NCBI GenBank assembly: GCA_030272155.1
Contig: CP126202.1
Coordinates: forward strand, 310,001 to 374,000
Direction: 5' to 3'
DNA length: 64,000 bases
From: Tetradesmus obliquus
Lineage: Eukaryota; Chlorophyta; Chlorophyceae; Sphaeropleales; Scenedesmaceae
Shown piece by piece: positions 6,188-62,032 of the stretch. The position numbers and the translations under genes are program-made. The stretch's first letter is position 1, and the number at the start of each line of letters is the position of its first letter. Below the pieces are notes generated by a model that made no database searches, was not told where the DNA came from, and worked only from the letters and a program-made list of their open reading frames with translations.

Positions 6188-7105
6188 ATGGATGACACCG
6201 TTTACGGCATCTTCGGAACCAAGCTGGATGACGGGAGCTACACCAGGTGCGCAGATCAGGTGCAGCAGTACTTCACAGCTGCTCATGCGACGAGTGCATC
6301 CAAATAGCGTGCAACTATCACGGCGTGGCAGTAATTCAATCGCTGGTTGTCGCCTGTGTGGTTACATTGAGTCGTTCTCGTAAAGAAACGTTCGGAACAA
6401 CGCATCTTGAAATGCATGCACCTGCACTTGCTGCTACTGCTTCTGCTGCTGCATGCAGGGCTGCAGACGGCTCATGGCCGTATGCACTGCTCAATCACAA
6501 GGGAAACGACCTTACCTACAGGCCTCAGGAGCACCTGTTAAACAACCCGAAGTCGTGTGGCCTTGGCAGGCGGCAGGAGCGCAAGCACTTCATTGCACGT
6601 TGCGTGACTGACATGCAGCTGGTCCCCTGGACAGAGGAGGCCAAGAAGGGCTTCCGCAGCGGCATCTGCCGCGGCCGAGGCCCCTGCAGATACAGGTTTG
6701 TAGTGAATCAGTTACGTTGTATGCTGCGAACACATAGCATGTGACTCAGCACCTGTTGTGTCGCAGCAGCAGCAGCAGCACTGCTGAGCTGCTGAGCAGC
6801 GAGGGTTCTGCAGCAGCTGCCTTTGTGCAACAGCGTTTGTGCAGCACAGCTATAGCTGAGCAGGAATGACTCTGCAGTGTGCAGTCATACATACCCAGGG
6901 AGATCTTTGTCTAACAAACTCAATTTGTGTACTGTCAGGGCTGCAGCTGGCTCAGCGTGATGTTGCGGCATGCATCGGAACCTGCTTGCCCCGTTCCATT
7001 TTTGTCTGACTCGCATCATTGCACTCTACTGAGCACTTTTTGCTGCAGCATCAAAGCTCCTTAAATATGCACATTCACAGCTGCCTATACGCGTGTTGCC
7101 CCGCA

Positions 7106-7140
<35 letters not shown>

Positions 7141-7645
7141 CCACATACTTGCAGGTACTGGCTGCAGCACGTTAATGGCACTCAGGAGGAGGCCTGGAGC
7201 GGCGTGGGAGGGGACGAGCTGATGCCTGTGCTGCGGGAGGCTGTGCAGGTGAGCTGCAGCACATTGGAAGAGCTTTAAAACGTGCTCTGCTTCTTTTGAA
7301 ACGTACTCTGCTTCCTGATGCGCTCATCAACTGAGGCGGTGCAGGTGAGCTGTAGCTCGTTGGGTGAGCTGTGAAGATGCGCTTTGCTTCTTGACGCCCC
7401 GTGACCAGGGTCCGGCGAGGTGGCCAAGCTTGCAGTAATCAGGGTCTTGGCCCAGCATGTACTTTCAGGGTGTAACTCGGCCACTGCTGGCCAAGATCTT
7501 TGCTGCAACTATGTGGAGTCCCTTATACACTGCTCAATAACTGGCACTGTCAGCCCACACAAGCTGTCCCAGAAGTAGTGTGTCAGTAAGCAACACAACA
7601 CTGTTCAACGTGCTGCCCCTAACCGCCGTGACTGCCGCCTCCGCC

Positions 7646-7679
<34 letters not shown>

Positions 7680-10458
7680 CAACCGCCTCCTCTTCCACTG
7701 CCAGGAGTGGCGCCGCGCCACACAGCCCAACGTGCCTGCAGCTGCAGCGCAGGCTGCACCTGGCGATGTTGAGGCGGCTGCACCAGCAGGTGACAACTTT
7801 GATGACACTGCAGACCATGATCAGCAGGAGCCACATCATCATGACCATGATGAGTCAGCAAGCCCTGCAGAGCTGCACACACCAACACCAGCCCCCGCAG
7901 CAGCAGCCAAGCAGCGCGCTGCCGAGGCAGCTGCCTCTGCAGCAGCGGCGGCAGCAACAGCAGCAGCGGCAGCAGCAGCAGGGCACAGCTCAGCAGCAGC
8001 GGCTGCGACACCCAAGCGCGGCAGCGGCACAGCAGCAGCAGGTGCGTCGCGCCAAAGAGGCCCAAGAAGACAAACGGGGCACGCAGCACGCCTGCAGCAG
8101 CAGCAGCAGCAGCACGCCAGGGTGGACCATCAGTGGCGGGGGGTCTGGCGCAGCCTGCAGGGGCTGCTGCTGCTGCTGCCGCTGGCGGTGTGGCCGGCAG
8201 CAGTGCTGCTGCTGCTGCCGCTGGCGGTGTGGCCGGCAGCAGTGCAGCTGCTGCTGCTGCTGCTGCCGGCCCAGGTGCTGCTGGCATCAGCGAAGCGGAG
8301 CAGCTGCTGAGCTTGACAGTTGGTGCAGCAGCGGCGGACCCAAACTGGCGCAACGTGAGTGTGGTGGAGTGATGTATGTTCGGCAGTGCCAGAAAGGCAA
8401 GGCAGCCGGCGAGCAACCACCCTACATTGTAAAAGCATCGATATTGCCCTCGTTTCAGTGAGTGGCCGTGCCTGCTGAAATGCATCGTTGCATTGCATCT
8501 GGGCTTTACAAGCCTTCCAGAACATGCATGCTCTTGCATACATTCATTAGCTGTGAACCAGGCATTGTGTGCAGCACCCGCCCTCGTGGCGCTGGCAACC
8601 AACACGCTGCAGATGGAGCGGCGCAAGGCCATGTGCTGGGCCTTCGAACCATGCATGCGTTCGCCCCTGTAACTGCATGCAACAGTAACCTGTCTGCAGC
8701 ACCCTGCGTCCGTGGCGCTGCTCAACAACGTGGCGCTGATAGAGCGAGAGCAGGCCATCTGCTGGGCACTCAGTAATGCATGCTTCACTCCTGCAGCAAC
8801 ATGCAACTGCAATCTGCTTGCAGGGACCGGCCGTGGTGGCGCTGGCCCACAACGCGCCACGGATGGACCGCCACAAGCATTTCCTGAACATTTGCGATGA
8901 ACATGCTTTCGCCCCTGTGAAAACATGCAATCTGCTTGCAATCTGCTTGCAGGAACCGGCCGTGGTGGCGCTGGCCCACAATGCGCTGCGGATGGAGGGC
9001 CACAAGGCAAGCACTGGAACAAGCCTGCATGCTTTCGCCCATGTCACATCATGTAACTGCAATGTGCGTGCAGGACCGGGCCATGGTGGATCTGATGAGC
9101 AATGTGGCGCAGATGGAGCGGGAGCGCGCCAAAACGGAGCGCGACCGCAACGATAAGGTGTTGCGGCTCGTGATGTACGACGTAGACGTGCTGAAGGTGC
9201 GTGTTGCAGCTGTTGGATGTAAGATGGCGCTGCACGCTCTAGCATGTTGTGCTACGCCGTGCTTGGATGGGGTGCTGCACGTGGTTGTTGCATGTTGTGT
9301 GTACTGCACGACCTGAGCGTGCTGACAAGGCATGCTGCACAGCTGTAGCCTGATCCAGAGTGTGTTGCTTGAATGGGATTCGGCATGTACACCGAGGCCT
9401 GCGCTGCACGGCTTGAGAATGCTACAGTGTGGTTGCTACAGCCTGGTGCTGCGTGGCCTGGGCGTGCTGACGGTACGTGCCGCAATAAACTGTTAGCAGT
9501 GCCGAATCAGCCAATGAGGTGGCTGCTGCAAATTGTGTGTGCTGCTGGTACTGGGGGTGCTGCAGGTGCGTGCTGCACCTTGTGTGAGCTGGACAGGTGT
9601 ATTGTGTTCGCCACGCTCTCTGTCCAGGCGTTATAAATTTAGGACAGGACTGCTTCCTACTAACAGTGGCTGGCAGCTACATTGCTGGACTGCACTTTCT
9701 GTGCATTCATGCATCCACCGACATACCTGCGCCCCGGCTGCTGCTGATGCTGCCGCTGCTACTGCTTCTGCTGTTGCCACGTTATCGCCGTGCTGTGCTG
9801 CTGCCGTGCTGCTGTTTGCTGCTGATGTGCTGCTGATGTGCTGCTGCTGCTACTGCTGCTGCAGGGTGGTGCTGGTGCGGCAGGCGGCCCTGGCCTGCTG
9901 CCTGGGGGCAACCTGCAGGTGGGCAGAACGCTGCTTTTGCTGCATCATCATCAGTGCAGAAGCAGTCAGGGGCAACCAGCTGTGGCCACATTACATGGCA
10001 GCTACAGCTGTCAGTGGCAGGCAGCAGCAGGATGGCTCAAGCTACGACAGTGCAGCATTCCACTTGCGCAGGCGCTGCTGTCACACTGCAGGTGGCTGCA
10101 GGCCCTAAACTGCCCTTGCTGAGCCAAGGCAGCGCCGCAATATGCCAGGCAGTAACAATCTGCACTGTTGTGCTCTGCGTTTTGCTTGCATGCCATAGCG
10201 GTGCAGTTTGCTCACCGTCAACTGCATGTTCGGCGGAGGGTGGAGCAACAGTATAACACAGTGCTGCTGTCCAGAGGTCAGGAATTTCTGAGTGCAGCCC
10301 ACTATGAAGCACAACCTTGTCACTGCCAAGACCTCTGCCATGCAGTGTGCAGAGCCGCGCTCTTCACACACTTGATGCTGCTTTCTGACTTGCTGCTGCT
10401 GCAGGCGCTGCCTGCCAGCATGGCTGGCGCCCGGCTTGTTGAGGAGGAGGCTGACTAG
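6188..10458 (+). CDS. Unrecognised low-complexity protein, nine exons, 398 aa
   Basis: Exons: 6188-6246, 6459-6695, 7155-7248, 7705-8041, 8161-8354, 9074-9196, 9428-9472, 9865-9918, 10405-10458. Splice phases close to 1197 nt. The first ~130 residues look folded and basic (PYALLNHKGNDLTYRPQEHL, RKHFIARCVTDMQLVPWTEE, YWLQHVNGTQEEAWSGVGGD). Next come an Ala-rich acidic/His stretch (DHDQQEPHHHDHDESA) and Ala/Gly runs. A charged helix follows (MVDLMSNVAQMERERAKTER), then a short C-terminus ending LVEEEAD. I do not recognise the family. Exons 7 and 8 are small and rest on phase and splice sites alone. Four partial copies of exon 6 lie before it. One of them, 8953-9006, has an intact acceptor, an AAG|GCAAGC donor and symmetric phase, so it may be a real exon. 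The last exon is repeated downstream. Confidence 0.55.
8568..9073 (+). repeat. Four echo copies of exon-6 start
   Basis: Units of ~125 bp each contain an acceptor (TGCAG) followed by ~55 nt resembling the first part of the exon at 9074. They start near 8570, 8701, 8827 and 8953. Encoded cores are ALVALATNTLQMERRK, ASVALLNNVALIEREQ, AVVALAHNAPRMDRHK and AVVALAHNALRMEGHK, against AMVDLMSNVAQMERER in the full exon. The spacer is also shared (GCATGC.TTCGCCC..GT). The first copy has lost a base and is out of frame. Confidence 0.8.
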
Positions 10459-11500
10459 GCTGCAGTCGCACTGCATGGGTGCAATGAAGCGGCTGGAAGC
10501 CCCTCAGGGCAGAGCCATTGGAGCAGTGTGCTATTAAAATCCGCTACACTGCCTTTACCAGCACTGGCGGATTGTATGCATTGTCAGCTGCGTAGCAGCA
10601 GCAGCCTGCAGCTGGCTTGATCACAAAGCGGGTGGCTTAGGCTGAGCCTTGCCTGTGGCAGCGCCAGTTGTGGCTGGCGCCCGGCTTGTTGAGGAGGAGG
10701 CTGACTAGGCTGCAGCCGCACTGCATGGGTGCAATGAAGCGGCTGGAAGGCCCTCAGGGCAGAGCCATTGGGGCAGTGTGCTATTAAAATCCGCTACACT
10801 GCCTTTACCAGCACTGGCGGATTGTATGCATTGTCAGCTGCTGCTGCTGCTGCTGCTGCTGCTACGCAGCAGCCTGCAGCTGGCTTGATCACAAAGCGGG
10901 TGGCTTAGGCTAGTGCCAGTTCTGGCTGGCGCCCTTCAGGTTGAGGAGGAGGCTGACTAGGCTGCAGCCGCACTGGAGGGTCCGACGGGTGAAATGAAGC
11001 GGCTGGAAGCCCCTCAGGGCAGAGCCATTGGGGCAGTGTGCTGTTAGAATCAGGTGCACTGCCTTGACCAGCACTGGCAGATTGTATGCATCGTCAGCTG
11101 CTGCTGCTGCTGCTACGCAGCAGCCTGCAGCTAGCTTGATCACAAAGCGGGTGGCTTAGGCTGAGCCTTGCCTGTGGCAGCGCCAGTTCTGGCTGGCGCC
11201 CGGCTTGTTGAGGAGGAGGCTGACTAGGCTGCAGCCGCACTGCATGGGTGCAATGAAGCGGCTGGAAGGCCCTCAGGGCAGAGCCATTGGGGCAGTGTGT
11301 TGTTGAAATCCGCTACACTGCCTTTACCAGCACTGGCAGATTGTATGGATCGTCAGCTGCTGCTGCTGCTGCTGCTGCTATGCAGCAGCCTGCAGCTGGC
11401 TTGATCACAAAGCGGGTGGCTTAGGCTGAGCCTTGCCTGTGGCAGTGCCAGTTCTGGCTGGCGCCCGCCAGGTTGAGGAGGAGGCTGACTAGGCTGCGCT
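10405..11500 (+). repeat. Five tandem ~250-bp copies of last exon plus 3' flank
   Basis: The C-terminal coding end (GGCGCCCGGCTTGTTGAGG...GCTGACTAG) recurs near 10427, 10676, 10927, 11197 and 11459. The first four copies are followed by the same ~200-bp flank, containing GGGCAGAGCCATTGG, ACTGCCTTTACCAGCACTGG and TGATCACAAAGCGGGTGGC; the fifth breaks off just after the stop codon. Later units carry a CTG run of variable length before CTACGCAGCAGCC. Only the first copy joins in phase to the upstream exon, so the rest are probably 3' UTR or untranscribed flank. Confidence 0.85.
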
Positions 11501-16809: not shown

Positions 16810-17550
16810 TCAGCAGATCACGCAACCGCATGCTGGCTCCGCCTTCTTGCCATGCGGTTTCCTCATCGCTGTGCCGCTGCCTGCAGCCATGCCTGCAGCG
16901 CTGCATGCAGCAGGCGCTGGCTTGTCCTGCAAGGACTCAGCTCCTGTGCAAGCAGCAACAGCAACCACAGTTGCTTTGCCGTCTCCGCTGTCCCCTGCAG
17001 CACCGGCAGATCCGGCACCTGCCGCTGCACCGCTGTCGTCTACATTGGATGCATCAGCAGCAACCAAACCATGGGCCGCTGCCACAGCCCCTGTAGCTGC
17101 ATCCTCGTCAATGGTGCTGCCTCCCCTCCTTTCCAGCCTCGCTGCTGCATAGGCATCCATGCTGCGCCTGCCAGCTCCGCGCAGCTTGCTGATTGCACCG
17201 GCAATGCCCGAGCTGCTCTTGCGCCGCTCCGCTGCTGCTGCTGCCGCCTCCTCCGCCTGCAGCAGCTGCTGCAGCTGCTGCAGCACCCAAGCAGCAGCCG
17301 GCCTTGCAGTCGGGTCAGCAGCCCAGCAACGCTCAATGACACCCCACACGCCCGCATGCATATTCACCGGCCGCGGAGGCCGGAAGCCGCCTGCCACGCG
17401 GGCCGCATATGCCTCGGTGTCCGAGGGTTTTGAGGCCGGGGTTTGGGTGTACAGCAGTAGTGAGCGGCTGAAGAGCTCGTAGAGGATGACGCCCAGGCTG
17501 AACACGTCCACGGACTCGTTGTAGGGCTCGCCGCGGTATATCTCCTGCAA

Positions 17551-17582
<32 letters not shown>

Positions 17583-30916: not shown

Positions 30917-30949
<33 letters not shown>

Positions 30950-33069: not shown

Positions 33070-33130
<61 letters not shown>

Positions 33131-33514
33131 GAAATGCTATTGTTGCAGACTCCAAGGTGCTGCTGCTGCTGCTGCTGTGAAATGCTATTGTTGCAGACTC
33201 CAAGGTGCTGCTGGAGGAGAGCAAGGCAGGCCTCAAGACCAAGCTGGCAGGTGGGGCCATGCCACTTGGGCTTGCAGTTGTGACCCTTTTCTGCCTGAGG
33301 GCTATCTGTTAAGGGCTCACTCTGCATGCCAGCAAGTATATTGTGTGTATTGCGTATGGCTAGCTACAGCCAGCGCTGTGCCATGTGTACAGTGATGACT
33401 TTTGTGGCGCCCTGTCAGCAGATGCGCATCAGTACTGCAGCATCATGTGGTTTGATCAGCGCTGGCATGCGCTATGCTGGTGATGCCTTACCTCAACACA
33501 CTGTTCAATCTGAG

Positions 33515-33549
<35 letters not shown>

Positions 33550-33714
33550 AGACTCCAAGGTGCTGATGGAGGAGGGCAAGGCCGGCTTCAAAACAAAGCT
33601 ATCCGAGATCAGCAGCAAGCTGGACGAGCACCTGCATCAGCAGCAGCACGCGGAGCAGCAACAGGCATCGCAGCAGTGGAAGCAGTACCAGCTGCTGCAC
33701 CAACAACAGGCCAT

Positions 33715-33774
<60 letters not shown>

Positions 33775-34307: not shown

Positions 34308-34340
<33 letters not shown>

Positions 34341-34703
34341 GTGGTGGTGCTGGGGGTGTGGCTGGCGCCAAGGGCTCAGCAGGGCGGCGTGGCGTGGTGG
34401 TGATGCTGCTGGCTGAGGGCTTGGAGGTGGTAGGGGAGAAGGGCACCAAGGTTTGTGGGCCATTCGTTTACAATGCAGTGTGATGTCTTTCTGCGATGCT
34501 GGCACTTGAGCACTTGAAGGGAAAGGGGTAAAAGGCATGCTGACCATGCTGACTGTGTAGCTGCTTTGATGAACCTTACTGGCTGCAAGATGTCTTGCTT
34601 GTGCTGCTGCATCGCCCAGCTCTGCTACATCATTGGACTCAACCTTATTGGACTGTGTCTTTGAAATACCGTATTGTATTTTTGTCACCAAACCGGAATA
34701 TGG

Positions 34704-34738
<35 letters not shown>

Positions 34739-37429: not shown

Positions 37430-37465
<36 letters not shown>

Positions 37466-43268: not shown

Positions 43269-43300
<32 letters not shown>

Positions 43301-44071
43301 TGCGATGGCAGCAGCAGCGGCAGCCTTGGCCGTGTGTCGCTGTCGCGGCTGCAGTTGGGGCTTGTGCTTGATGAGCGGCGGCTGAAGGAGCTGCTGGCTG
43401 GCGGCATTCAGGTGGGCCGTTGGTCATAGTGATGCTGAGAGATAACGAAAAGGTAACTTTTGCATGTCTTTCAAAACCTTTGTATGTCAGCAATGCTTCT
43501 GCTGGTGCTTGATGAACGGCGGTTGAAAGACCTGCTGGCTGGCGGCATTTAGGTGCGCCGTTGGTCAGGTCAATTCTGCGAGATATGACAATAATATTGT
43601 TTACGAGTATGTTTCATCATGACATGTCGGCTCTGTTGGGGCTGGTGCTTGATGAGAGGCGGCTGAAGGAGCTGGCTGGCGGCATTCAGGTGGGCTGTTG
43701 GTCATAGATATGCTGAGGAATATCAAACAGGTAACTTTTGCATGTCTATTTAAATGTTCAGTATGTCAGCACTGCTGGGGCTGGTCTCATCTCTTAATGA
43801 GCGGCGGCTGAAGGAGCTGCTGGTTGGCGGCATACAGGTGGGGCTTCATGTTGGCTGCTGCTTGCTGCTGGTTCTAGTGTTACCAATCACTGCTGCAGTT
43901 GGGCTGCAACAGCTGCTGCCACCGGCGCCAATGCTGCTGCTGCTGCTGCGGCGGCGGCGGCTTCTTCTGCTGTGGCTGCTGCGGCGGCGGCTACTGCTGC
44001 CGCTGCAGGATGCCAACCTAGTGGGCGACTTGCTGGGCTGCTTCGGGGAGCTCTTCACTGCCATATTGTCA

Positions 44072-44107
<36 letters not shown>

Positions 44108-44183
44108 ATGATGCAGGATGTTAACTTGGCGGGAGGCTTGCTGGGCTGCTTCGTGCAGCTCTTCACTGCCACGATGTCACTAG

Positions 44184-44237
<54 letters not shown>

Positions 44238-49448: not shown

Positions 49449-50955
49449 TTGAAATGCGTTGACTGCAGCTTGAGGGAAGCCATGCTACAGGACAAGCAGC
49501 AGCAGCAACGGCAGCAGCAGGAGCAGCAGCAGCAGCAGCACACCGACTTCAGCGTGGCTTGCGCTTGCAAAGCAGAGGATACTATGCGTTTAGTGCCTTC
49601 TAAACACGTATGTGCATCGTCAAGCGCGTGGACGGACCTGCCTTGCCTCCGTTGGTAACCCCTGCCAGCACCAGCAGTCCGGAGCCGGGCTAGTTGCATA
49701 CGACCTCAGAGTTGCTCGCCGGCAAAGAAATACATCTGCGTCTGTGACAATGTCTCTTTTGACAGCGCTTGGGCAGCGTCAGGCCCGTGCTATGCGTGGC
49801 AGTCGTGTTCACCCTACGGAACCATGCCCATATACAGCAGGAAGCTCGACATAAATGCTGTAATAAACGTTGAAAGGTGGCCAAGTTTTATTCGAACCGA
49901 ATGCACCCTTGGTCTAATAGAGAAGCACAGACGACGGGACTAATGATGACACACTACGCTACCAGGTGATTACCCTCTTAATTACACCTTCGATCACCAG
50001 ATACCCTCTTGGTTGGTACTCATAGTTTCCTCACGACATGATTAGAAGCCGCAACAAACCTGGCAGCTGCTGCCACGCGTTGCACCCGCTATGCTGACAT
50101 GCTGTTGAAGTTCGCACAGGCCTGCCAACCAGACTGAGGCAGTTGCCGGCAGAGCCCTGCTGGCCCACCAGTTTAAGAAGTTGCCGGAAATAAATTTCAG
50201 TTTACAAAGGCTGTGTGCGGCACAATGTGTGCAACACAGCTGTGTGCACCAGCGCCATGGACGTCACTGACGCCGGTGACCGGCAGCCTGAATTATTATC
50301 ACCCTGCCTCCATCTTCCGAAGGCTTCTGGGATGTGATTGGCATAATTTAACATTGGCCAGCAAACAGAACATCAACGGCTTCAAGTTGGCACCCTTGGC
50401 ACCGCGCTAACAGGCCCTATGCATGCAAGCCATGAAGTGTTCAACTCTGGAAGTGTCACTGAGTGACTGCATTTGGCTGGCGGCAGCAACGCCACTGCAG
50501 CTGGGCACATCTTTGTGGCTACTGCATGCCGATGCTTGCACTCCCACCATGCTGCAGTCATTGGTGCACAAGTTGGAAGTTACACAGCTGTGTACCTGCA
50601 GGTAACTTCGCCCTTTTGAGAGCCAATGGCTGGCTCATTGGGCAGACAAGAACACCAACTTGAACGCTTGTCACAAACACTCCCGTCGCCCATTCTCTGG
50701 TGCCCTGCACATGCTGCAACTCCAACTCCTGCTGCTGCTGCTGCTATTGCAGCATTACCGTCACCAGCCCCGCACCTTCCGCTACACTAGTGCACTACAA
50801 TCTGCTGTACCCAACTGCTGCCTCCTGGCTGCCTAACCACAGCTAGCTGCTGCTGCTGAAGCTGCTGCTACTGCTGCTCAAGCTGCGACGCTCTCAGCGA
50901 GCATCCTGCAACAACAGCAGCTTTAAGTCTCACTCATGCATCTGCTACTGCTGCT
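49449..50955. other. No gene recognised
   Basis: I see no coding exon chain between the membrane-protein start (49448) and the LYRM2-type gene. A CAG repeat lies at 49496-49540. Confidence 0.35.
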
Positions 50956-51300
50956 GCTACTACTACTTGAAGCCAATCCCTTTGTCCAGCATCTGCGGCC
51001 GTGTCCTGCAGCAACAGCAGCAGCTCGATCCCGCCATTCCTCTACTGCTGCTGCTGCTACGCCTGTTGCTGCTGCTGCCGCTGCCTGCTGAATCCAATAG
51101 TCTCCTTCAGCATGTGCAGCCGCAACCAGCATCGTCAGCAGCAGCAGCAGCTGCAGTCGCGTGCCCACATTCCTCTACTGCTGCTGCTGCTGCTGCTGCG
51201 CCTGCTGCTGCTGCCGCTGCCTGCTGAATCCAATAGTCTCCTTCAGCATGTGCAGCCGCAACCAGCATCGTCAGCAGCAGCAGCAGCCGCAGTCGCGTGC
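50955..51300 (-). repeat. Three echo copies of LYRM2 exon-2 end
   Basis: GCTGAATCCAATAGTCTCCT plus TCAGCATGTGCAGCCGCAAC occurs near 51087 and 51225, and a degraded relative near 50970. All three follow the gene's stop on the minus strand and resemble the last ~45 nt of its final exon (51345-51400). Confidence 0.8.
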
Positions 51301-51340
51301 CCACATTCCTCTACTGCTGCTGCTGCTGCGCCTGCTGCTG

Positions 51341-52086
51341 CTACCTGCTGAATCCAATCGCTTCTTCCAGCATCCGAAGCCGCGTCCTGCCGTCACTGAG
51401 TGCGTACTTTATGTCGTATGGCGCCGCCTTTTCCCGCTGCAGTTCAAACTCGCGCCGCACCTCAGACAGCACGTCTTCTGTTTGAAAGACACAAGGTGTG
51501 CGGCACAAACAGGCGCAGCAAGTGAGAAACAGAACAAAACAAAGCCATGCAAAAGATTGACAAGGGACGGCGATGCAAGGGTGGTGGGTGTGCAAAGCAA
51601 GCAGTGCTGTTCTGCAACCGCAGCTGCTGCTGCTGCTGCTTGGCCTTGCGTGGCAACCTACATTAAGGCTGAAATGCACATGATAAGGTGTTGCACAGAC
51701 AGGTTAAACACATAAAGCGTTGCTTGAGAATGATGAGGTTGCTGGCACCTGCTGGCCAGAGCCTGTTTCTGCTTGTGCTGCTACTGGTGCTGCTGCTACT
51801 GCTGCTGCTACTGCTGCTGCTACTGCAACACCATGCCTGCACGCAACGGTCACGTTCAACAAGCTAAAAACTAGTCTTAAGACGTAGTATTACATGAGTT
51901 TATCCACAACGGATTTGATTCCGCACGTGCATCGTGTAATACAAGACGCAGCCTGTCCTGCACGGCATGCTGTCGTTGCTCGTGCGTACCTTTGTTTCCG
52001 GCCGGCAGCGACCTGGCAGCACGAATAAACTTGCGGTATACGCTGATTACTTGGCTACGCAGCACGAATCTCTGCAGCTCTGCCAT
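51341..52086 (-). CDS. LYRM2: LYR motif-containing protein 2 (LYRM2-type)
   Basis: Two minus-strand exons, 52086-51990 and 51477-51341, give 77 aa. The AAAG|GTACGC donor is phase 1 and the acceptor is AAACAG. Exon 1 encodes MAELQRFVLRSQVISVYRKF and a basic helix ending ARSLPAGNK. Exon 2 encodes EDVLSEVRREFELQREK, then DIKYALSDGRTRLRMLEEAI and a short end. Order and spacing match human LYRM2: the F.LR..V...YRK.. helix, a P turn, the EFE/EFR element with R...K, then a final amphipathic helix with L..LE. The LYR tripeptide is VYR here, and the phenylalanine that usually follows is present (KF). LYR/Complex1_LYR proteins act in the mitochondrial matrix in complex I or Fe-S assembly via acyl carrier protein; LYRM2 is tied to complex I. 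Length is slightly below the usual ~88 aa, with no obvious long presequence. Confidence 0.8.
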
Positions 52087-52578
52087 GTGTAGCTGGTTGA
52101 GTGCTCTCAGCTGTCTGTGTGTGGAGCAGACACACACGCAGAGGTGTCCAAAGCCTGCCCTGCACCCACGCCACTACGAGTTCTAAAGTTCAACGAAACG
52201 AGTGACTATGATTGTTAGCAAGTCAACGCAATGAAGCAGCATTGTCTCGGTGACAGTGGCATGGCTTCTGAAACTGAAACCCTGGATGACACATGATATG
52301 GATGACACCCACCCTGTCACACACCACATTCACCACACCCACCCACTTCCATACATGACAAGAGCTGTCGGCATGTACCGTCGCCATGCACCTGCCCTGC
52401 CACCAAACATACATCGCTGATGCAGCTGTGCACTGCCTCCCATACTAAGCAGCAGGGCTGGCGTGCCAAGCAGCCAGCCTGAGCAGCAAAGCTGTCTTGC
52501 TACATTCTGCCACACAACCAACGCTGCTGCACAGAACTGGCTTTTTCCAGAGCTGTCTGGAGTTCTTGAATTCTGTAA
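52087..52578. other. Short intergenic region, no gene seen
   Basis: Between the LYRM2-type start (52086) and the TPR-CS gene stop (52579), both on the minus strand. It should contain the LYRM2 promoter and the neighbour's 3' UTR. Confidence 0.4.
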
Positions 52579-52667
52579 TCAGGCCGCGGCGCTGATGCGC
52601 TGCCATGCAGCTGCCCTGAGCAGCGCCAGCCGCTCACACCTCACGCGCTTGTGGCGGTCCAGCAGCG

Positions 52668-52703
<36 letters not shown>

Positions 52704-53081
52704 GGCAGCCGTTGGAAACATGGGTGCTGTTGGCTATCATCAAGTTGTAGGTTGTGCATACCTCAGCGGTCCCCTGCCACACTCGCTGCGCACGCTGAAT
52801 CATTGTGATGTACGAATTCGTTCCTTATGCGTCAGATAAAGCGGCCAAGTGAGTCAACTGGGTGCACACGTCTGCCGGTCCTGCAGCAGGCAACGGTCTT
52901 TGCACATTGGCACATGCCGGCAATGGGTGCACAACTCGCCATTTTACAACTGCCAGTGCTGCATCAGCTGCAAAACTCACCTGCACCTTAGAGCGCGTCT
53001 CCCGCCGTGCCGCCTCCTGCAGCCTCTGCTGCTCCTCAGCCGCTGCAGCTGCAGCGTGCTGCGCTGCCACCTGCAACACGT

Positions 53082-53126
<45 letters not shown>

Positions 53127-54201
53127 CAAGCAGCTGTGTCAGGATCAGGATGGCAGGATCGGCAAGTGTGCCTTGCGCTGCAAGATCACCAAAGGGTCAA
53201 ATACCCCTTTTGAGCCTCATCACTGGTGGCAGGTCGGTGTAGCCCTTGGCAGCATTGTCCCAGCCAATGCCCGGCATATAAAGCCACAACAGTTTGATCC
53301 GCTGCACCATCATTGCAGCACATGGACAGCACGTGGCATGTGTTGTTGATTATGACAACAGCATCACCATCCTCACCGCAGATGGCAGGTCGCTGCAGTG
53401 CTTCAGTTCATCGTCCCACCCAATGTCAGCCAAGCAGAAATACTTGAAACTCTGAAGGGTCATAAATGATTAGGATCTCACTGCGGGTGGTAGGTTGCTG
53501 TAGTCCTTCAGCCCATCGTCCCAGCCAATGTCAGCAGCGGTGTAAGTTTGTTGGATTGTATGCCTGCAGATGCTTCATTCATACATGAGGAGAAGTCCCA
53601 ATAAGGAGCCAACAAGGGAGCACAGGAAGTAGCAAACTCAGACAAATCCCCACAAACCAATAAATAGTGTATATGGTCAAAGGTTTGAACAATAATGCTC
53701 ACTGCGGGCGGCAGGTCGCTGTAGTCCTTCAGCGCATCATCCCAGCCAATGTCAGCCGGGTCATCAGCAAAGAGGCGCGGCCACCAGCTGGCGCTGTGCT
53801 GCCACGGCCTGCAGCAGCAGCAGCAGCAGCAGCAGCAGATGAAGCCATATAAACAATCAGGTTTGGCCATGTGATGGCAAGACGTCTCACGGCTGTGTTG
53901 TGGCAGTTGTCCACGGGAGCTTGTTGCACCAACAGGTTGTCTTGCGTGCATCATGAGTCAAGTTGGGTTGATGTAGGGCCATGCTCTAAATAGGTGCAAA
54001 GAGCATGTGGCACTTGCAGTAACGCCATCATCATGCGCACCTCTCATACAGTTCCAGGTTCAATTTGGCCAGCTGCAGCAGCAGCCGCCCTTCGCCATAC
54101 TCCCCAGCAGCAGCAGCAGCAGCAGCAGCAGCTATACTGCTTCCTGCTGTGCAGACAACAACGTCATCACCTACAGCAGTACCACTAGCAGCACCTGCAA
54201 C

Positions 54202-54232
<31 letters not shown>

Positions 54233-56603
54233 CTGCCAGGTGGGCTGAAGGTCCATATGCTCTCCTCCGGCACGATGCCCCTGGCCAGCTCCCCTTGCAA
54301 CAAAACCTCGCCCGTGGTTTTGTGCTGCACCCTGATGGCATAGGGCTCAAGCAGCACGATGAGCTGGCGGGCAGAGGTGATGCTGTCAGGCAGGCCCAGC
54401 AGCTGCACCAGCACCTGGTTTTAGAGAGGGGAAAAGCAAACACGATCACAAATCAGAGCAGCTGTGGTGTCACTGAGCAGAGCAGGGCATGCATGCATGC
54501 ATGATGCTGTGATGGTGAGATGATGTCAGGCAGGCCCAGCAGCTGCAGCAGCACCTGGTTGAAGACAGCAGAACAACAGGCAACGATGACAAATCAGTGC
54601 AGCTGTGTATTGTCACTCAGCAGAGAAGGGCATGTGCGCAATGTGATACTGTCAGGCAGGCCCAGCAGCGGCACGAGCACCTGGTTCAAGACAGAACAGA
54701 ACAAAAAAGCAACGATGACCAATCAGTGCAGCTCTGTGAGTTGACTGAGCAGGCCCAGCAGCTGCACCAGCACATGTTCAGGCAGCGGAACAAGCCACGG
54801 TCAATGTATCAGTGTAGCTGTGTATTGTCACTCAGCAGGGAACGGCATGTGCGCAATGTGATGCTGCCAGGCAGGCCCAGCAGCTGCAGCAGCACCTGGT
54901 TTTAGACAGCAAAACAAAAAAGCCACAATGACAAGTCAGTGCAGCGGTGTATTGTCACTCAGCATGGAAGGGCATGTGCGCAAAGTGATGCTGTCAGGCA
55001 GGCCCAGCAGCTGCAGCAGCACCTGGTGTTAGACAGCAGAAAAAAGCAACGATCACAAATCAGTGCAGCTCTGTGGGTTGACTGAGCAGAGCAGGGCATG
55101 AGTGTACAAAGCTGTGAGCATATGATGCCGTCAGGCAGGCCCAGAAACTGCAGCAGCACCTGCGCACGTGCACAGCGGAGGTGCAGGCCGCAATATAACA
55201 TATCCTGTGCAGCTGACGTAGCCGAGCAAAGCGAGGCATGTGCATGTTCAAGATGTGTTTGGTTTGCAGAGAGAGGTGTGTGGCTGCTGTGTTGCGTATT
55301 CGTCAAAGTTTGACAAGTAATGGCAGCATTTACAGCTGGCGGCTAAGGCTTATCTCCTGACCCTGGCAGGCACCAATTTCACTCAAGCAACCTGACTTCA
55401 CAGTTGTACTCAGGGAAGGCATAACAGCACAGCAGGTTCCTGCAGCAGCTGAGCCACACAAACGCTCATCAGCCTGTTTCCAGCCCTGCTCAACACCACA
55501 CCACACACACCTCGCTGACATGCATAACAGCACTGAAGGTCACTGCAGCAGCTGAGCCACACAAATGTTCCCTTTTACATCAACCTGTCTCCACCGCTGC
55601 TCAAATCCACACCCCCGCACCTCGCTGGCTGTCTGCCTCCAGCGGATGGGCAGGTCGGCCGGCTGGTACCACACCGCCTCCGCATCAGGCGGCAGCTCCC
55701 TGTTAGATGTTTAAAACAGTGTCATATGACATGTGTTAGTAACACATAGTTGGCCAATTTGTTGACAAGTGGCACTGCACAGTACAACACAAGCACATGA
55801 GGGTTGTGTATGAACAGGCAAGACGCCGCTGGCTTCCAATGCAGTGAACAAAATAGCAAGACCATTGGGTTAACCGCCGTTGACCAACACTGCAATTTTT
55901 AGATTAAATACATACAATATTGCTTGTGGTAGTCTGCCGCAGATCTGCACCACACCCACCTGGCATTGTAAATGCCCCTGCTCAGTGCGAAGGGGTGCTT
56001 ATCAGGTCTTTCCAGGATACATCTAGCCGCGTGACACACTGCTCGGCACACTTGGCAGTATACTGTATATTACTGCTCACCTTGCATCATATACCACCCT
56101 GCTCAGTGCGAAGGGGTGCTTATCAGGCCTTTCCAGGGGCATGCCGTCAGCAGCCACCAGGCTGAAGTGGCTGTACGGCAGCGGCAGCACAGGCACCAGC
56201 TGCTGCTGGGCGTCACCTGCTGCAGCCACCAGCTGCAAATCATCTGGCTCCTCACTGGCAGCAACTGCTGCCGCCCCAGGATGGGTTGGCGGCAGCTGCT
56301 GCACAGCCACTGCTGCTGTTGGAGCTGGCAGTTCCGCTGCTTTGCTTGTTGCTTCAGCTGGCTGGGAATCCACATCAGCGGCTGAGGGTCTGCCAGGAGC
56401 GCTTGTACTAGCGGAAGCCGACTGCTGCTGCTGCTGCTGCTGTGCATGCGTGGGTTGCTGTGCTGCTGCATGAAGGTCAGCCAGCTCTGCTGTGACTGTG
56501 TACAGCCGCACCAGCAGGCTGCCCTGCTGCTGTCCAAGCCCTTGTTCGCAGCTACTGGACAGTTCTCCTAGCGATCGGTCATCGCATGTCCCGCTGTCCA
56601 TGG

Positions 56604-56647
<44 letters not shown>

Positions 56648-57102
56648 GCCCTGTCACCGTGGCCGTTCAGCAGCAGCTGCTGCAGCTGTGGCCAGGCAGC
56701 AGCCAGGCTTGACATGCTGCTGCAGGTCTGCAGGAACGCCTCCGCTGCTGCTGCGTTGCTGCCAAATTGCACCTACATCAGCAGGCACAGCAGGATCACA
56801 GAAGTTGGCACCAACAGGGGCTGCTTCTGCTCAGTCACGTGCTGCTGACGCACACACGAGACAGCAAGCGCAAACACGCATGAGCTGCAGCTAACCACGC
56901 AAGCAGGTCTGCATGCTACAGTTTGAGGTTTTGGTACCATGGTTGACATCATCTCTGGCCAAGCTACAACAGGCTGACCCTTAACGCCATCCAGTGTACT
57001 TAGAGTAGTGAATAACATATCGAAAGGCACGGTCTTGTATGAAGCGGTAGCAACCGGCAGCACTCACTGTGCATGTCAAGCTTCCGACTGCGCCTGGTGA
57101 AG

Positions 57103-57152
<50 letters not shown>

Positions 57153-57996
57153 ATCGCCACTCGTGTCAGCCCCACTGCCAACCGGCCCACGCCAGCCAGC
57201 TGTGCCAAGCCTGACAGCAGCAGCACGCGCTGCCGCCCTGACAGGCTGAGCCTTGGCGGCGGCTGGCCACCCTGCTGCTGCTGCTGGTGGTGGTGGTGGA
57301 GGTAGTGCTGCTTTGCCTTGATGTGTACAGTCACAACCAGCAGTGCATCCTGCAGAGGCAAGGCATTCAATAAGTGAGTTGGTGTTTATGCTGCGTTGGG
57401 TGCCGCACCACGGAGTGGCACTCCGCGGCAGCACTACTTGCGTCATCATCAGCCCCTTACCTTTGCATGCTGCTGTGCAGCCCCAGCTACATCGGCGCCA
57501 GTCGACAGCCACCCCCGCCACCACCTTAGCATCCGCTGCTGCTGCTGCCAGCACCACTGTCTGCTCGGCATCATTCAGCAGCCCCTGAGCTGCCGTCAGT
57601 AAGTCCACAGCATGAAAATGAAGATGTGCTTTAGGGTGTTTGCTGCATATGTCAGCACATTGATTAGCGTCACTCGCTTCACCCTCTCCAGCCCCTCACC
57701 TTGTCACTTTGCGGCCCCGCAGGCAGCCCCAGCTGCATGAGTGCCAGCCGACAGCCTACCCCACCGCCTCCGCCACCATCCGCTGCTGCTGCTGCTGCTG
57801 CTGATGATGACGATGATGATGATGATGATGATGATGATGCTGGTGCTGCTGCCGCCAGCACCGCTGTCTGCTCAGCATCGTTCAGCAGCTCCTGAGCTGC
57901 CGCCAGCTTGCTCTGCAGCTGCCTGCGCAGCTGGGCAGTGTCAGCAGCAAAGACCGAGCCTGCTGATGGTACTGCTGCTGTGAGTTTGCCCTCAGG

Positions 57997-58043
<47 letters not shown>

Positions 58044-58134
58044 TGCTGGAGGTGCTGTCTGACAGCAGGTTGAGGGCTGTCAGGTACGCCTTAGCAGCAT
58101 ATTTGGGTCTGCACTGCGGTGGCAGAGGCGGTGC

Positions 58135-58166
<32 letters not shown>

Positions 58167-61100
58167 GGCCGCCAGCCATGTGGGCATCCCCTAGTGCAGT
58201 GTAGCACTCCAGCAGCAGCTGCAGCAGCTGCCTGGAGTCAGGCAGCACCTGTCCGGTGACATCATCATCAGCATCAGCAGCAGATGTAATGAGTGCAGGT
58301 GCGACTTATGCAACGGCATGTGTGTCATACATCATGCAGATGTGCTGTTCCAGCCAAGATGACGATGTCAAAGCTGCAAGGGTCGCCACAGCTAAGGCCA
58401 GCAACAGCTGCCGCAGCACAGTTCAGATGCTGGCGTTGCATATCGGTCACCAGGTGGACAACAGAAAGACACAAAGTTTGGCACCGCATGACGCAAGACT
58501 TTGAGGAAGGCCTGTGCAAAAGGAAATGCAGAGATTCAACCTCAGCGTGCGTAGGGATCCGGCATATGCTCACCATGCCACGCAGCGCCGCCTCAGCAGC
58601 AGCAGCAGCCTGCTGCGCCTGCTGCCACCTCCTCAGCTTCAACGACAGCTCAGCCTGCAGCAGCAGCAGCTCCACAGCCGCCACTGTAGCTGCAGGACCA
58701 TCCTTCTTCAGTAACCTGCTACTGCTGCTGCTGCTGCTGCTGCTGGTGCTGCTGCTGGTGTTGGGGTTGGCTTTCAGCCACCTCACAAGCATCGCCTGGC
58801 ACTTCGAAAGGCATGCGCCCTGCTGCTGCTGCTGCTGCTGCTGTGCCTTGACCAGCTGGAACATGGCCTCCCTCAGCTCAGCATGCTGCTGCCACTGCAG
58901 CTCGCTGCTGCTGCTGCTGTTGGCAATTGCCAAGCTACTGCTGCTGCTGCTGCTGCCAGTGATGGAAACGGCTGTTTCTGTTGTTTGCTGCTGCTGTTGC
59001 TCAAGCGTGCTGTTGCTGAGAGGCAGTGCAGGGCCTCTGACGAGATGGGCAGTGTCTTCCACTGTGCAGCCACCATGACTGTCCAGCTGCTGCTGCTGCT
59101 GCTGCTCCAGCTGCTGCAGCAGCATGTCTGCCAGCTGCTGCCGCGTCAGCTGCCTCACTGTTGCCACCAGCTGCTGCTCGCACTCGCCCTGCTCAGCGCT
59201 GCCTGCAGGCCACACACAGGCAGCAGCCAGCAGTTAGCAGCCACAGCAGGTGCATATGCAGCTGTGAGCCACAAGGTTGAAATAAAATAGGAAAATAATA
59301 ATAATAATAATAAAAATAATAATTAAAGTAAAATATAATAATTTGAGCCATACCTCAGCCGCTGCTGCTGCCGCTGCTGTTGCACGCTGTCAATTGTCGT
59401 CTACCATGTGCTGTGACCTCACAGATGATGCCAATCAGGCGCATGCCAATAGCGCTGAATCCAGAAACCTGAAGCCCTGAAACATGTCACAAGGACGCAA
59501 CCCTGCAGGCTGATGTCAGGCCAAGCACAGCCTTCAGCAACACTATGCCTGCACTTTGCCACTGATGCGTAGCTGTGTGCGCTTCATTGGTTGCGCCTTA
59601 CCGCGCTCTGACTTGCAGTAAGCCTCCAGGAACGCCGCAACAGCCTCCGGCCACCTGGACATAAGGGAGTGAGGGAGAGCAGCAGCAGCAGCGGCAGCAG
59701 CAGCAGCATCAGCAGAGGGTGGCGAAGCGCGGCAACCAGCAGGCAATCTGGCTGTTACAACATCTGGCCGCGCGGTCACACAGAACGCGGCAGAGTACAC
59801 AGCAGCAACAGCACCAGCAGAGAGTGGTGAAGCGCGGCAAACAGCAGGCGGTCTTGAAACGCGCAAGCGCCCTCATGTATGATGACACATCGTTTTAGTG
59901 ATGCCTGTGCTGCCAGCATCCAATCTTCTTGTAACAGCCACAACCTCAACCCACAAACCACACCAACATGTGCAGTGCTGCCAGGGCTCTGCCTCTCCTC
60001 CAGTGGCCCTTGGCCCAGCCGGGAGCCAAATACGCAGCATGCACCACCATCACATGCCTAAGAATGCATCTGCTGCTACCCATCAAACAACAAAGCAAGA
60101 CACGCACAAGCGCCCTCCTTGACTATGACACGTCCTTCATGTTGCCACCTGTGCTGCCGGCAGCTTGTAATCTGGCAACTTCCAGGACCTTAATTCCTAC
60201 TCACCTCTGCAGTGCTGCCAGCGCCCTGCCCCTCCTCCAGTGGCCCTTGGCCCAGCAGGCGCCAGCCGCACAGCATGCACATGCCATCTCACACCTGAAA
60301 TGTATCTGCTGCTGCCACCATACACAAACACAGTGACACACCATTTCCTGTTGCTGCTGTACTGCCCGTTGCAACGTTTAACACTCAAACGTGAAGTAGC
60401 AAAAGCACCACGACACGTTGCACCCACCTGTGCAGTGCTGCCAGTGCTCTGCCTCTCCTCCAGTGGCCCTTGGCCCAGCCAGGAGCCAGCCGCACAGCAG
60501 CAGCAGCGTCCTGCAGGGCAGCCTGCTGCCGGCCTGCTTTCAGCAGCGCTGCACTCCTGTTGCTCAGCAGCAACCGCAGCAGGGCGGGGTCCTCTGAGGG
60601 AGCCAGCAGAGACATTGCGGCGCTGTATCTGCAGCACAGAAAGCAGTTAGGATGTTAGAGAGGAGCAGCAGCAGCAGCAGCAGCAGCAGGGCGGGGTCCT
60701 CTGAGGGAGGCAGCAGGGCCATTGCGGCGCTATACCTGCAGCATAGAAAGCAGTTGGGGTGTGAGAGCAGCAGCAGCAGGAGCACAGGTTCCTTTGCAGG
60801 GGCCAACAGGGACATTGCAGCGGTGAAACAGCACAACAGCCAGGGTTTGGGGTCGACAGGGATATGATGTCAGCCATGGTTGGGGTTGATGAGAGCAGCA
60901 GCAGCAGCAGCAGGAGCAGCAGCAGCAGCAGCAGGGCTGGGTGTACACCAGTCCTCTGAGCGAGCAACAGGGCCGCTTTGGAGCTTTACCTGCAGCACAG
61001 CCACATTTGGGGAGGGGAATCGATCCTCAGCCAGCCATCCGCAGTCCTCGTTTGCGTGCCCTCAAGGCAGTGTCTGCGGCACAGGTGCATAGTTTGGCCC

Positions 61101-62032
61101 AAGAGGCCGCAGCCACCTCTTGCAACAGTGCAGCTGCACACGGGCGAGCTCAGGCTGCCACTCAAGTGGCATTTCACACCACGATAGGTGCGCCGCCCTG
61201 TGTGTGAAGCAGGACTGTGCCTATGAGGCAGGATTGTGGCTTTTGACAAGGAGACTGCATGTGCTGTGAAGCAGAATCGTGGTGCAGGCAAACCTCGACG
61301 CAGGTTGTAGCTGTGGCCGCTGCCCACCTGTCTGCTGCCTTGTCTGTCTCAGGCTGCTGCTGCAATTCGGCCACACATCTCCAGAGAGCCAATGCATGTG
61401 CTGCCTACTTTGACATCTGCTGCCAAACTATGACAACCCCTCATGCTGAGAAGCGCCAGTCACCTGTCTGCTGCCTTGCCGTAGTTGCCACAATGTGCTA
61501 CATGCCTTCTGCTATACCTCCACAACCCAGCAGAAGCATCACTGGCCTGATTGCATGCAGTTTTTGAAATCTCTCTGTCGAGCTCACGCACGGGATGCCG
61601 CCCACCTGTCTGCCGCCTTGCCGTAGTTGCCGCGAGCCATCTGCTCCGCTGCTGCCTTCTTGAGATGGGCCAGCTTCATGGCCCTGAGGGTGCAGCAGCA
61701 GCAGCAGCAGCAGCAGCGGCGGCATTGTTTACAGCAGTTATGACAGGCTACGATGTAGTTTACAGTGTGGCAGTGATGGATGCCGCTCCATGCAACAGCA
61801 GTACTCAGCACTGACCAGGCTGGCCTAGTACCACTGGGCTGGCAGCCCAGGCCTCAGTGTGGAGACACCACACAGCTCGCTGGTTCAGGTATAGCTGCAG
61901 CCAAGCACAACCTGCTCTTACTTCAAGTTGCTTGATCCCATGTTGTTGGTGGGTGTGCTTGGAAGTCGAGGTGTTGGTGGTGGTTGCCTCTGCTGCTGTT
62001 GCTGATCCTGCAGCAAGTGCAGCTCCTGCTGC
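52579..62032 (-). CDS. TPR and NudC-type CS-domain protein, ~1110 aa
   Basis: Thirteen minus-strand exons, all in phase: 62032-61922, 61683-61606, 60628-60428, 59654-59602, 59202-58574, 58248-57700, 57349-57068, 56772-56081, 55699-55621, 54414-54041, 53808-53703, 53070-52981, 52668-52579. The first exon starts in phase 2, so a 5' exon is missing. The N-terminal third has tetratricopeptide helices: KKAAAEQMARGNYGKAADR; LLLSNRSAALLKAGRQQAAL and AVRLAPGWAKGHWRRGRALA; RWPEAVAAFLEAYCKSER. The middle has helical segments broken by Ser, Ala and Gln runs. Residues ~885-1050 form a CS/NudC-like domain: IRWRQTASEVLV, LIVLLEPYAIRVQHKTTGEV, LLQGELAR, EESIWTF, a ~45-residue Ser/Ala insert, LLLQLAKLN, then SASWWPRLFADDPADIGWDD. 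A charged coiled-coil tail ends ISAAA. TPR plus CS recalls Sgt1-type co-chaperones, but the CS type and length differ. Confidence 0.8.
53220..53530 (-). repeat. Three echo copies of CS-domain exon end
   Basis: CTCAC.GC.G.TGGCAGGTCG plus CTGTAG..CTTCAG...ATCGTCCCA recurs near 53225, 53380 and 53480, after the real exon end at 53703 (DDALKDYSDLPP). Similarity falls with distance. Confidence 0.8.
54500..55170 (-). repeat. Six echo copies of CS exon start
   Basis: CAGGCAGGCCCAGCAGCTGC plus AGCAGCACCTGGTT, the reverse complement of an acceptor plus VLVQLLGLPD, recurs near 54528, 54652, 54750, 54867, 54993 and 55132, upstream of the true start at 54414. Spacing is ~100-135 bp. Intron spacers are shared (ACGATGACAAATCAGTGCAG). 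Confidence 0.88.
55950..56040 (-). repeat. Echo of exon ending at 56081
   Basis: CCTGCTCAGTGCGAAGGGGT plus GCTTATCAGG.CTTTCCAGG occurs here and inside the real exon at 56099-56140. This copy is on the donor side. Confidence 0.85.
57465..57605 (-). repeat. Echo of exon 58248-57700 end
   Basis: The segment encoding GLLNDAEQTVVLAAAA repeats ELLNDAEQTAVLAAAA of the upstream exon and ends in a plausible AAAG|GTAAGG donor. It carries the later GC-rich part too (CGACTGGCGCCGATGTAGCT), so it may be an included exon in some transcripts, but it lacks an obvious in-phase acceptor. Confidence 0.65.
59278..59345. repeat. AT-rich AAT-repeat tract in intron
   Basis: About 65 bp of AATAATAATAAT-like sequence in an otherwise GC-rich region, inside the intron between exons 59602 and 59202. 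Confidence 0.85.
59960..60260 (-). repeat. Two echo copies of TPR exon end
   Basis: GCAGTGCTGCCAG.G..CTGCC plus CCTCCTCCAGTGGCCCTTGGCCCAG recurs near 59972 and 60211, after the true exon end at 60428 (GHWRRGRALAALHR). Confidence 0.85.
60640..60995 (-). repeat. Three echo copies of TPR exon start
   Basis: GGGCGGGGTCCTCTGAGGGA-type sequence plus GCCATTGCGGCGCTATACCTGCAG recurs near 60690, 60785 and 60950, before the real start at 60628 (YSAAMSLLAPSEDPALL). CAG runs of different lengths sit in each unit. Confidence 0.85.
61320..61490 (-). repeat. Two echo copies of first TPR exon end
   Basis: CACCTGTCTGCTGCCTTG followed by CCGTAGTTGCC occurs near 61453, and a shorter copy near 61327. The real exon end is at 61606 (GNYGKAADR). 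Confidence 0.75.

Follow-up and report, generated by a model that had tools for sequence, protein, structure and literature searches.

Exon edges copied with their splice sites into adjoining introns of Tetradesmus obliquus: tandem duplication filtered by splicing as a probable explanation

The 64-kb window considered here, meaning the whole stretch of Tetradesmus obliquus DNA that was analysed on contig CP126202.1 (G000:C12:310001-374000), carries a protein-kinase gene on the reverse strand, a gene of 1694 amino acids (aa) on the forward strand and further predicted genes, whose introns contain local direct copies of the edges of their own exons. Such a copy, which includes the splice site and lies in the adjoining intron, is called an echo, and its polarity is regular when copies of an exon start lie upstream of the exon and copies of an exon end lie downstream. 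Together with five 40-kb stretches (S1 to S5, contigs C1-C5, loci L009-L028), the sample amounts to 264 kb, and in the stretches examined about one exon edge in ten is copied with its splice site into the neighbouring intron, nearly always on the same side. The copying described in the initial annotation of this DNA is therefore confirmed, with corrections, and extends past the window.

The kinase gene forms an open chain of 901 aa with kinase pieces recognized by Pfam, which also found only kinase pieces in the 9.9-kb read-through frames. Its assembly shares 98% identity with the T. obliquus protein P0001 over 100% of the 901 aa, so that the whole exon chain is supported. The gene and its echoes, with offsets in nucleotides (nt), are as follows:

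16811..22534, reverse strand: protein-kinase gene, eight exons (the gene's first exon not included).
22534-22353, 22110-21936, 21547-21402, 21130-21022, 20774-19797, 19625-19356, 18118-18008 and 17544-16811, reverse strand: kinase exons.
18755..19402, reverse strand: end of exon 19625-19356 and four downstream copies (offsets 103, 206, 389 and 590).
18118..18676, reverse strand: start of exon 18118-18008 and upstream copies (offsets 136, 267, 401 and 536; only 136 and 267 in a stricter scan).
17733..18008, reverse strand: end of exon 18118-18008 and downstream copies (offsets 141 and 278), one copy having an in-frame stop.

Compared with P0001, a second database protein, P0002 (NCBI OEZ86_004407), is shortened by 260 residues and is missing the greater part of kinase exon 20774-19797, which is present in P0001 and in the open frame; judging from these sequences, the shortened model is probably an annotation error.

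Regarding the 1694-aa gene, 18 exons compose a single phase-consistent chain, with the 5' end of the gene left unset. Its homologues P0075-P0077, from Scenedesmus sp. NREL 46B-D3, Raphidocelis and Pleodorina, clearly support 9 of the 17 junctions, and most of the others align poorly or on one side only; at the junction 43411/44240, the Scenedesmus homologue P0075 contains roughly 80 additional residues that do not resemble the copies. The exons and echoes of this gene are as follows:

29016..45342, forward strand: 1694-aa gene, 18 exons.
29016-29122, 29482-29661, 29993-30425, 31006-31064, 31321-31905, 32200-32333, 33197-33250, 33552-34450 and 34842-34938, forward strand: exons 1-9.
35308-35411, 35746-35994, 36401-37110, 37889-38093, 38759-38917, 42371-42463, 43067-43411, 44240-44647 and 45079-45342, forward strand: exons 10-18.
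29138..29545, forward strand: start of exon 29482 and an upstream copy (offset 211), with a weaker one at 296.
32306..32823, forward strand: end of exon 32200-32333 and downstream copies (offset 151; a further repeat, 32778-32823, belongs to the array by our own assignment).
33006..33600, forward strand: start of exon 33552 with upstream copies (offsets 355 and 541), the copy at 355 being 33197-33250.
33130-33205, forward strand: 48-nt repeat touching the start of 33197-33250, from the permissive BLAST list, with only 9 exon nt.
34739..34868, forward strand: start of exon 34842 and one upstream copy (offset 101), with 27 exon nt identical and the flank unrelated except for CTG/CAG.
34891..35116, forward strand: end of exon 34842-34938 and one downstream copy (offset 176).
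35954..36097, forward strand: end of exon 35746-35994 and one downstream copy (offset 100), the intron flank not being homologous.
37245..37950, forward strand: start of exon 37889 and four upstream copies (offsets 114, 249, 363 and 412).
38035..38253, forward strand: end of exon 37889-38093 and one downstream copy (offset 154).
38463..39077, forward strand: echoes at both edges of exon 38759-38917 (start copy 172 upstream, end copy 131 downstream), with no other match in the genome.
42254..42706, forward strand: exon 42371-42463, with a start copy 117 upstream and end copies 110 and 237 downstream.
43346..43842, forward strand: end of exon 43067-43411 and three downstream copies (offsets 141, 278 and 426), with no other match in the genome.
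44004..44299, forward strand: start of exon 44240 and two upstream copies (offsets 123 and 231).

The third gene compared is an HDAC1-type deacetylase in S5, composed of 9 exons and matching the HDAC1 of Protein Data Bank (PDB) entry 4bkx with an E value of 1.5e-155 and no gap longer than 1 residue. The end of its exon 2 is at 19547, the gene finder having placed it at 19445, the position used in the array, flank, codon and copy-pair tests. In S5 (L025-L028 joined), positions 13958-15223 hold tandem units of about 250 nt with coding sequence, corresponding to the 3' part of this gene.

Two lists of copies were used. The permissive list of arrays combines a self-comparison by BLAST with gene models written for this analysis, while the strict scan requires 30 exon nt and 5 splice nt to recur with at least 77% identity within 1.2 kb of the edge, omitting 126 low-complexity edges (36 in the window) and an uncounted number of edges of exons shorter than 24 nt. 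The exon models came from our own gene finder, trained on the kinase gene and then self-trained, in the version of a segment model with length limits; a plain hidden Markov model (HMM), which tended towards micro-exons, was abandoned. All echo counts beyond the three compared genes depend on the models so obtained, in which the five predicted genes of the window are partly merged and 'introns' longer than about 1 kb may be intergenic. A coverage profile against distance from the junction was replaced by window tests, as it rises towards the deep intron because the copies themselves fill the introns. In addition, the flank tests omit the coding-repeat array at 13.9-15.4 kb of S5, the codon tests omit copies with less than 70-72% ungapped exon identity, the splice-dinucleotide count omits exon 33197-33250, and the whole-genome search (104.7 Mb, 17 contigs) skips simple repeats and very common words.

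The self-comparison gives 110 near-tandem arrays in the whole sample, 46 of which lie in the window. In the window, 31 of the 46 cross exactly one predicted exon edge, in agreement with the more than 30 copied edges counted in the initial annotation of this DNA, and the strict scan finds copies at 21 of the window's 93 testable edges. The 110 arrays divide into 78 over a single predicted edge, of which 9 include a predicted exon as well, 18 that are intron-only, 5 intergenic, 4 exonic, 3 touching two exons and 2 containing exons; the 'exon-containing' array 17733-18676 is in fact composed of both echoed edges of one kinase exon. By the strict scan, a local direct copy occurs at 60 of the 591 testable edges, distributed as 21/93 in the window, 5/109 in S1, 1/116 in S2, 9/98 in S3, 7/96 in S4 and 17/79 in S5. 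Thus, echoes are nearly absent from S2 (L013-L016 joined). In the three compared genes, 26 of the 64 internal edges are echoed (HDAC 8/16, kinase 3/14 and the 1694-aa gene 15/34), a proportion that is not a genome rate, as these genes were picked for their location in the window or for visible richness in arrays.

At the 60 echoed edges, 102 copies obey the polarity and 8, at 5 edges, break it, so the rule proposed earlier as free of exceptions among the edges checked stands as a strong tendency. The exceptions comprise units with whole predicted exons (S1 23264 and S4 28125), edges of predicted-only models (window 50934 and S3 34357) and, at 33197 in the window, what is likely an exonised copy matching exon 33552. 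In the compared genes, 48 copies follow the polarity and 1 does not; in the anchored BLAST set before filters, 140 follow it and 21 do not, many of the 21 coming from the coding-repeat array of S5. The same strict test found inverted copies within 1.2 kb at 0 of 591 edges, and the chance control, a direct copy more than 5 kb away in the same locus, gave 2 of 591. When three echo arrays and an intron minisatellite were compared with the whole 104.7 Mb, each matched at its own locus only.

Each echoed edge has from 1 to 5 copies; the low end of the earlier range of 1 to about 15 was recovered, the value of 15 was not found and, by our gene models, none of the window's high-copy arrays is an echo. 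Exon and copy differ at approximately 13% of compared sites, which makes a read-collapse artefact no sensible cause and bears out the earlier view of diverged copies. The 78 single-junction arrays have a median unit of 124 nt (25-75% range 105-160, 10-90% range 95-235), and the median echo offset of about 131 nt (n = 57) is far below the median length of the adjoining introns, 555 nt, compared with 285 nt for introns without echoes, confirming that echoed introns are longer.

The spacing and frame of the copies carry traces of splicing selection. In the strict scan, the nearest echo lies 83 nt or more away at all 57 edges, whereas the offset is below 80 nt in 11 of 37 intron-only repeats (Fisher p 1.2e-5). 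The modelled introns have a 5th percentile of 97 nt, and the limit of about 80 nt may reflect the space that a splice site needs, which it resembles. The edge offsets ignore the reading frame, falling into remainders 0, 1 and 2 after division by 3 in 17, 21 and 19 cases (n = 57), whereas 5 of the 7 repeats internal to exons preserve it, being multiples of 3. In 114 copies, the mismatch between exon and copy by codon position is 0.114/0.071/0.190, near the 2:1 pattern of a free copy set against a constrained exon, and 11 stops occur in 1191 copy codons. A strong coding constraint on the copies was considered and is unsupported by this codon-position pattern.

In the 264 kb, repeats of this kind are commoner at splice junctions than elsewhere. 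Windows with copies number 60/591 at edges, 53/1748 in intron interiors outside echoes and 20/527 in exon interiors (odds 3.6 and 2.9), and the same scan restricted to offsets of at least 80 nt gives 57 edges to 26 introns. Part of the excess is due to detection, because exon-anchored copies stay recognisable longer; moreover, random duplication often strikes a junction, because the unit length is close to the intron length. A simulation with random placement, decay and the same detection gave junction and intron arrays as 841:650, i.e., 56% at junctions, and a decay-free formula gave 32-55% junction-crossing, depending on the assumption. The youngest full-length arrays, with at least 90% identity, number 4 at junctions to 3 in introns, which are small numbers. 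An excess over random placement is likely, its size depending on the method.

Taking these results together, tandem duplications from break repair, filtered by splicing, are regarded as the best explanation and as a fairly probable one, rather than a dedicated copying system. Short local direct duplications, mostly of 85-250 nt, would arise often in this alga, most plausibly through the repair of staggered breaks or paired nicks, and splicing would then sort the survivors: duplications inside exons would persist mainly when they keep the frame, those inside introns at any size, and those over one junction only when at least about 80 nt separate the two splice sites, so that the original one is still used. 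What survives would have the complete exon at one end, the intron holding the duplicated edge together with a splice site of its own; through further rounds of tandem duplication, copies would accumulate, introns would become longer and the copies would drift. The local, direct and mostly single-junction duplications, their polarity, the shift in spacing, the random frame, the neutral-looking copies and the longer introns are observed features of the sample; it is from them that we infer the break-repair origin and the selective filter as the cause of the spacing.

Under this explanation, polarity is not a separate rule, because a direct duplication over exactly one junction leaves the uncut exon at one end of the array by geometry, and it needs only direct duplication and a working gene, because the other outcomes (a whole exon copied, an exon interrupted) tend to alter the mRNA. 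Consequently, the 'rule-bound system' of the initial annotation is not supported: its polarity follows from one-junction duplication in a working gene, and the spacing, the random frame at edges and the mostly in-frame repeats inside exons fit selection by splicing. Its proposal of junction-spanning tandem duplication is retained as regards local direct duplication across splice junctions and is weakened by about half of the echoes, in which homology of the expected intron flank is not detected.

This missing flank is among several observations that weigh against the explanation. Firstly, junction arrays exceed the simulated share, the BLAST list having 78 one-junction to 18 intron-only arrays (78/96) compared with the simulated 56%; full-length arrays of at least 80% identity stand at 19:7, where about 1:1 is expected, the older full-length ones at 17:2 (simulated 195:143) and the partial ones at 42:9 (simulated 200:69). 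Echo frequency is also very uneven between loci, differing about 25-fold between S2 (1/116) and S5 (17/79). The spacing limit is not absolute, since the permissive list has the 48-nt repeat at 33130-33205 and one of 67 nt (S5 6254). Regarding drift, the synonymous share of codon changes is 0.47 compared with 0.23 for random changes, slightly over a rough free-copy expectation, and 42 of 43 copies in the three compared genes (neutral 0.86, p 0.014) and 57 of 63 elsewhere (neutral 0.83, p 0.08) retain their splice dinucleotides, the copies not being independent in either set.

A further observation concerns the flanks. The intron flank is detectably homologous in 56/126 copies under strict settings, 66/121 under tolerant ones and 38/70 when only the nearest copy is taken, while simulated tandem duplications keep a recognisable flank in 74-76% of cases, and in 87-88% at an exon identity of 0.88-0.95; among real copies with an exon identity of at least 0.88, the flank is homologous in 25/63 (strict) or 31/59 (tolerant). 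Among the nearest copies, the homology reaches no more than 10 nt into the intron for 18 of 37 of the end type and 7 of 35 of the start type, and part of the echoes have homology over the full unit. In the compared genes, 27 end-type copies have a median ungapped identity of 0.30 at intron positions +7 to +26, with the exon part differing by about 1 base in 10, and 16 start-type copies have a median of 0.70 in the intron flank; the contrast is thus mainly at donors. Flank loss as an artefact of ungapped comparison or of growth in CTG runs was examined and set aside, as the shortfall persisted in gapped, run-collapsed alignments, being smaller on the acceptor side, and larger intron indels than those simulated could explain part of it. 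While the exon part and the splice motif remain similar, about half of the intron flanks are dissimilar, a pattern that would not be expected from simple tandem duplication. The candidate causes are re-copying from the exon, selection of decoy sites or duplications that capture filler DNA. Tandem duplication filtered by splicing does not account for the kept exon part beside changed flanks, and repeated re-copying of short tracts from the exon would be an added step.

Carried further, this step becomes an explanation of its own, in which the exon edge serves as master: the first or last 30-50 or so exon nt, with the splice motif, would be created anew or overwritten time and again in the adjoining intron by template switching or short-tract gene conversion, regardless of the flank. 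Exon edges acting as templates in this manner would account for an exon-part identity that is the same with and without homologous flanks (0.888 and 0.887 for end-type, 0.861 and 0.861 for start-type copies), for the copy-copy pairs whose flanks are at the unrelated level (27/32 end-type, exon identity 0.885; 34/51 start-type, 0.835) and for the homologous flanks in only 3 of 11 copies with an exon identity of at least 0.95, where the simulation gives 0.91-0.93. Likewise, the copied windows peak inside the exon, at 59/548 for 20 nt inside the edge compared with 16/488 for 20 nt into the intron. However, a copied or converted tract does not fit the donors of the end echoes without flank homology (n = 26), in which GT is kept in 23 and the +5 G identity is 0.88, whereas +4 and +6 differ (0.50 and 0.38), and some arrays, such as the one at 43411, are plain tandem with homologous flanks. 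On balance, templating by exons is considered doubtful. If true, it would be a concerted evolution mastered by exons that enlarges introns and supplies ready-made exon edges, the introns holding families of kept edges with unrelated flanks.

The same donors could point to function, with the copied edges selected as decoy splice sites to which the splicing machinery binds, so adjusting splicing or its timing. The end copies without flank homology have a median donor score of 10.7 bits (n = 26), compared with 9.1 for true donors overall and 11.5 for those of their own exons, and 99 of 106 copies have unbroken splice dinucleotides; nevertheless, the excess over the neutral expectation is small for copies that are not independent, the exon part drifts roughly like a free copy of a constrained exon and the frequency varies about 25-fold between loci, which leaves this function improbable.

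Still less probable is the reading that the gene models are wrong and that the copies serve as genuine alternative exons or ends of exons. Copies were often taken for exons by the gene finder, 38 of its 449 predictions being dropped for that reason, and 33197-33250 fits the reading frame as an exon of 54 nt, or 18 codons, resembling the start of exon 33552-34450; this copy may have become an exon and is thus a candidate exonised echo, the one candidate here for the 'steady supply of proto-exons' of the initial annotation. On the other hand, the homologues aligned across the junctions contain no copy sequence, and neither does the T. obliquus kinase P0001; offsets in multiples of 3 are no more frequent than by chance, and stops are present in the copy codons. 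Copies as coding exons are therefore ruled out by homologue alignments for the three compared genes, 33197-33250 excepted. A mobile element or introner-like family inserting at exon edges shares with the echoes the carriage of splice sites and is rejected, since each echo matches its own exon, inverted copies are lacking at all 591 edges and the arrays searched in the genome are local only.

Besides the echoes of the three genes, the window holds other arrays and repeats, partly at the edges of exons that are predicted only:

50948..61631, reverse strand: further echoed edges in predicted-only genes, e.g., 61606 end, 60628 start, 56081 end, 53703 end and 54402 start.
7237..11497, forward strand: further arrays at predicted-only exon edges (7248 end, 9074 start and 10458 end).
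39141..42146, no strand assigned: intron-only minisatellite and not an echo, about 15 units of about 189 nt with a 2-unit higher-order period, touching no exon and found at this locus only in the genome search.
27662-28799: minisatellite of about 20 units of 56 nt, rich in GTGCGCA/TAAGCG, within a predicted intron and touching no exon.
11652-12473: minisatellite of about 13 units of 64 nt, past the kinase stop codon, overlapping only predicted exons taken as spurious.

Moreover, a 48-nt unit is repeated 4.5 times at 46825-47040 with 98% identity, being apparently recent, and a (GCAG)n tract of about 44 units lies at 48613-48789. In S1 (L009-L012 joined), a repeat at 10459-10638 touches both exons around a predicted intron of 97 nt, which could have been made by tandem duplication. 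In place of a plain pyrimidine tract, the acceptors in the models of the 264 kb are preceded by (CTG)n-CAG with a period of three bases, according to a matrix from the discarded early model.

Concerning known systems, no report of widespread exon-edge echoes or of re-copying from exons was found in the open-access literature. The view of the initial annotation that no named mechanism matches the echoes is too strong, as tandem duplications are known in rice (PMC7971508) and a potato case involves an intron-exon structure (PMC4974935). In the sections of the rice paper drawn on here, tandem duplications are the commonest source of insertions and are enriched at 50-200 bp, and fill-in by Pol alpha-primase at break ends is described as making small tandem duplications in mouse and human cells (PMC8355091). 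The echoes resemble both in being direct and adjacent, in the same enriched size range and in needing no mobile element; however, many of the rice cases are perfect tandem repeats, with no tie to splice junctions given in those sections, whereas here many flanks are not homologous and exon edges are in excess.

Further known cases are ATP2A1/ATP2A2 and the potato RdRp gene, where, as far as the consulted part of the source goes (PMC4974935), a short genic segment with splice signals was tandemly duplicated; in potato, the duplication crossed a junction and produced a new intron. Unlike these cases, the duplicate here sits inside the intron and lengthens it, with no new intron or exon in the exon chains at the echoes, one candidate exon excepted, and many edges of one gene are affected, often with several copies; the homologues aligned to the 1694-aa gene and HDAC have no extra exon piece made of copy sequence. 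Similarly, novel intron positions in Drosophila are attributed, in the part of the article used, to tandem duplication or intron sliding (PMC2891723), being alike in the regional tandem duplication around proto-splice sites and unlike in yielding new intron positions, in contrast to the apparent growth of introns here. Introners, as presented in the portion cited (PMC9860276), also multiply splice sites within genes, as dispersed families, while echoes are local copies of one exon. For T. obliquus itself, a published table of five algae gives a mean intron of 462 bp, the longest among them (PMC5966456, the table being the part used).

The cause is thus likely known in kind, a break-repair tandem duplication with a splicing filter, abundant here in some loci and almost lacking in S2. 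What deserves the attention of specialists is the decoupling of the exon part from its flank; if this holds across strains, it would point to re-copying from exons. The genome could also serve as a natural assay of the distance required between two equal splice sites before a copy is harmless, and of the origin of new intron length and new exons. Compared with the single-gene cases known before, the echoes extend to approximately one edge in ten over 264 kb, unevenly distributed, with a shift in spacing, a random frame and a near-strict orientation.

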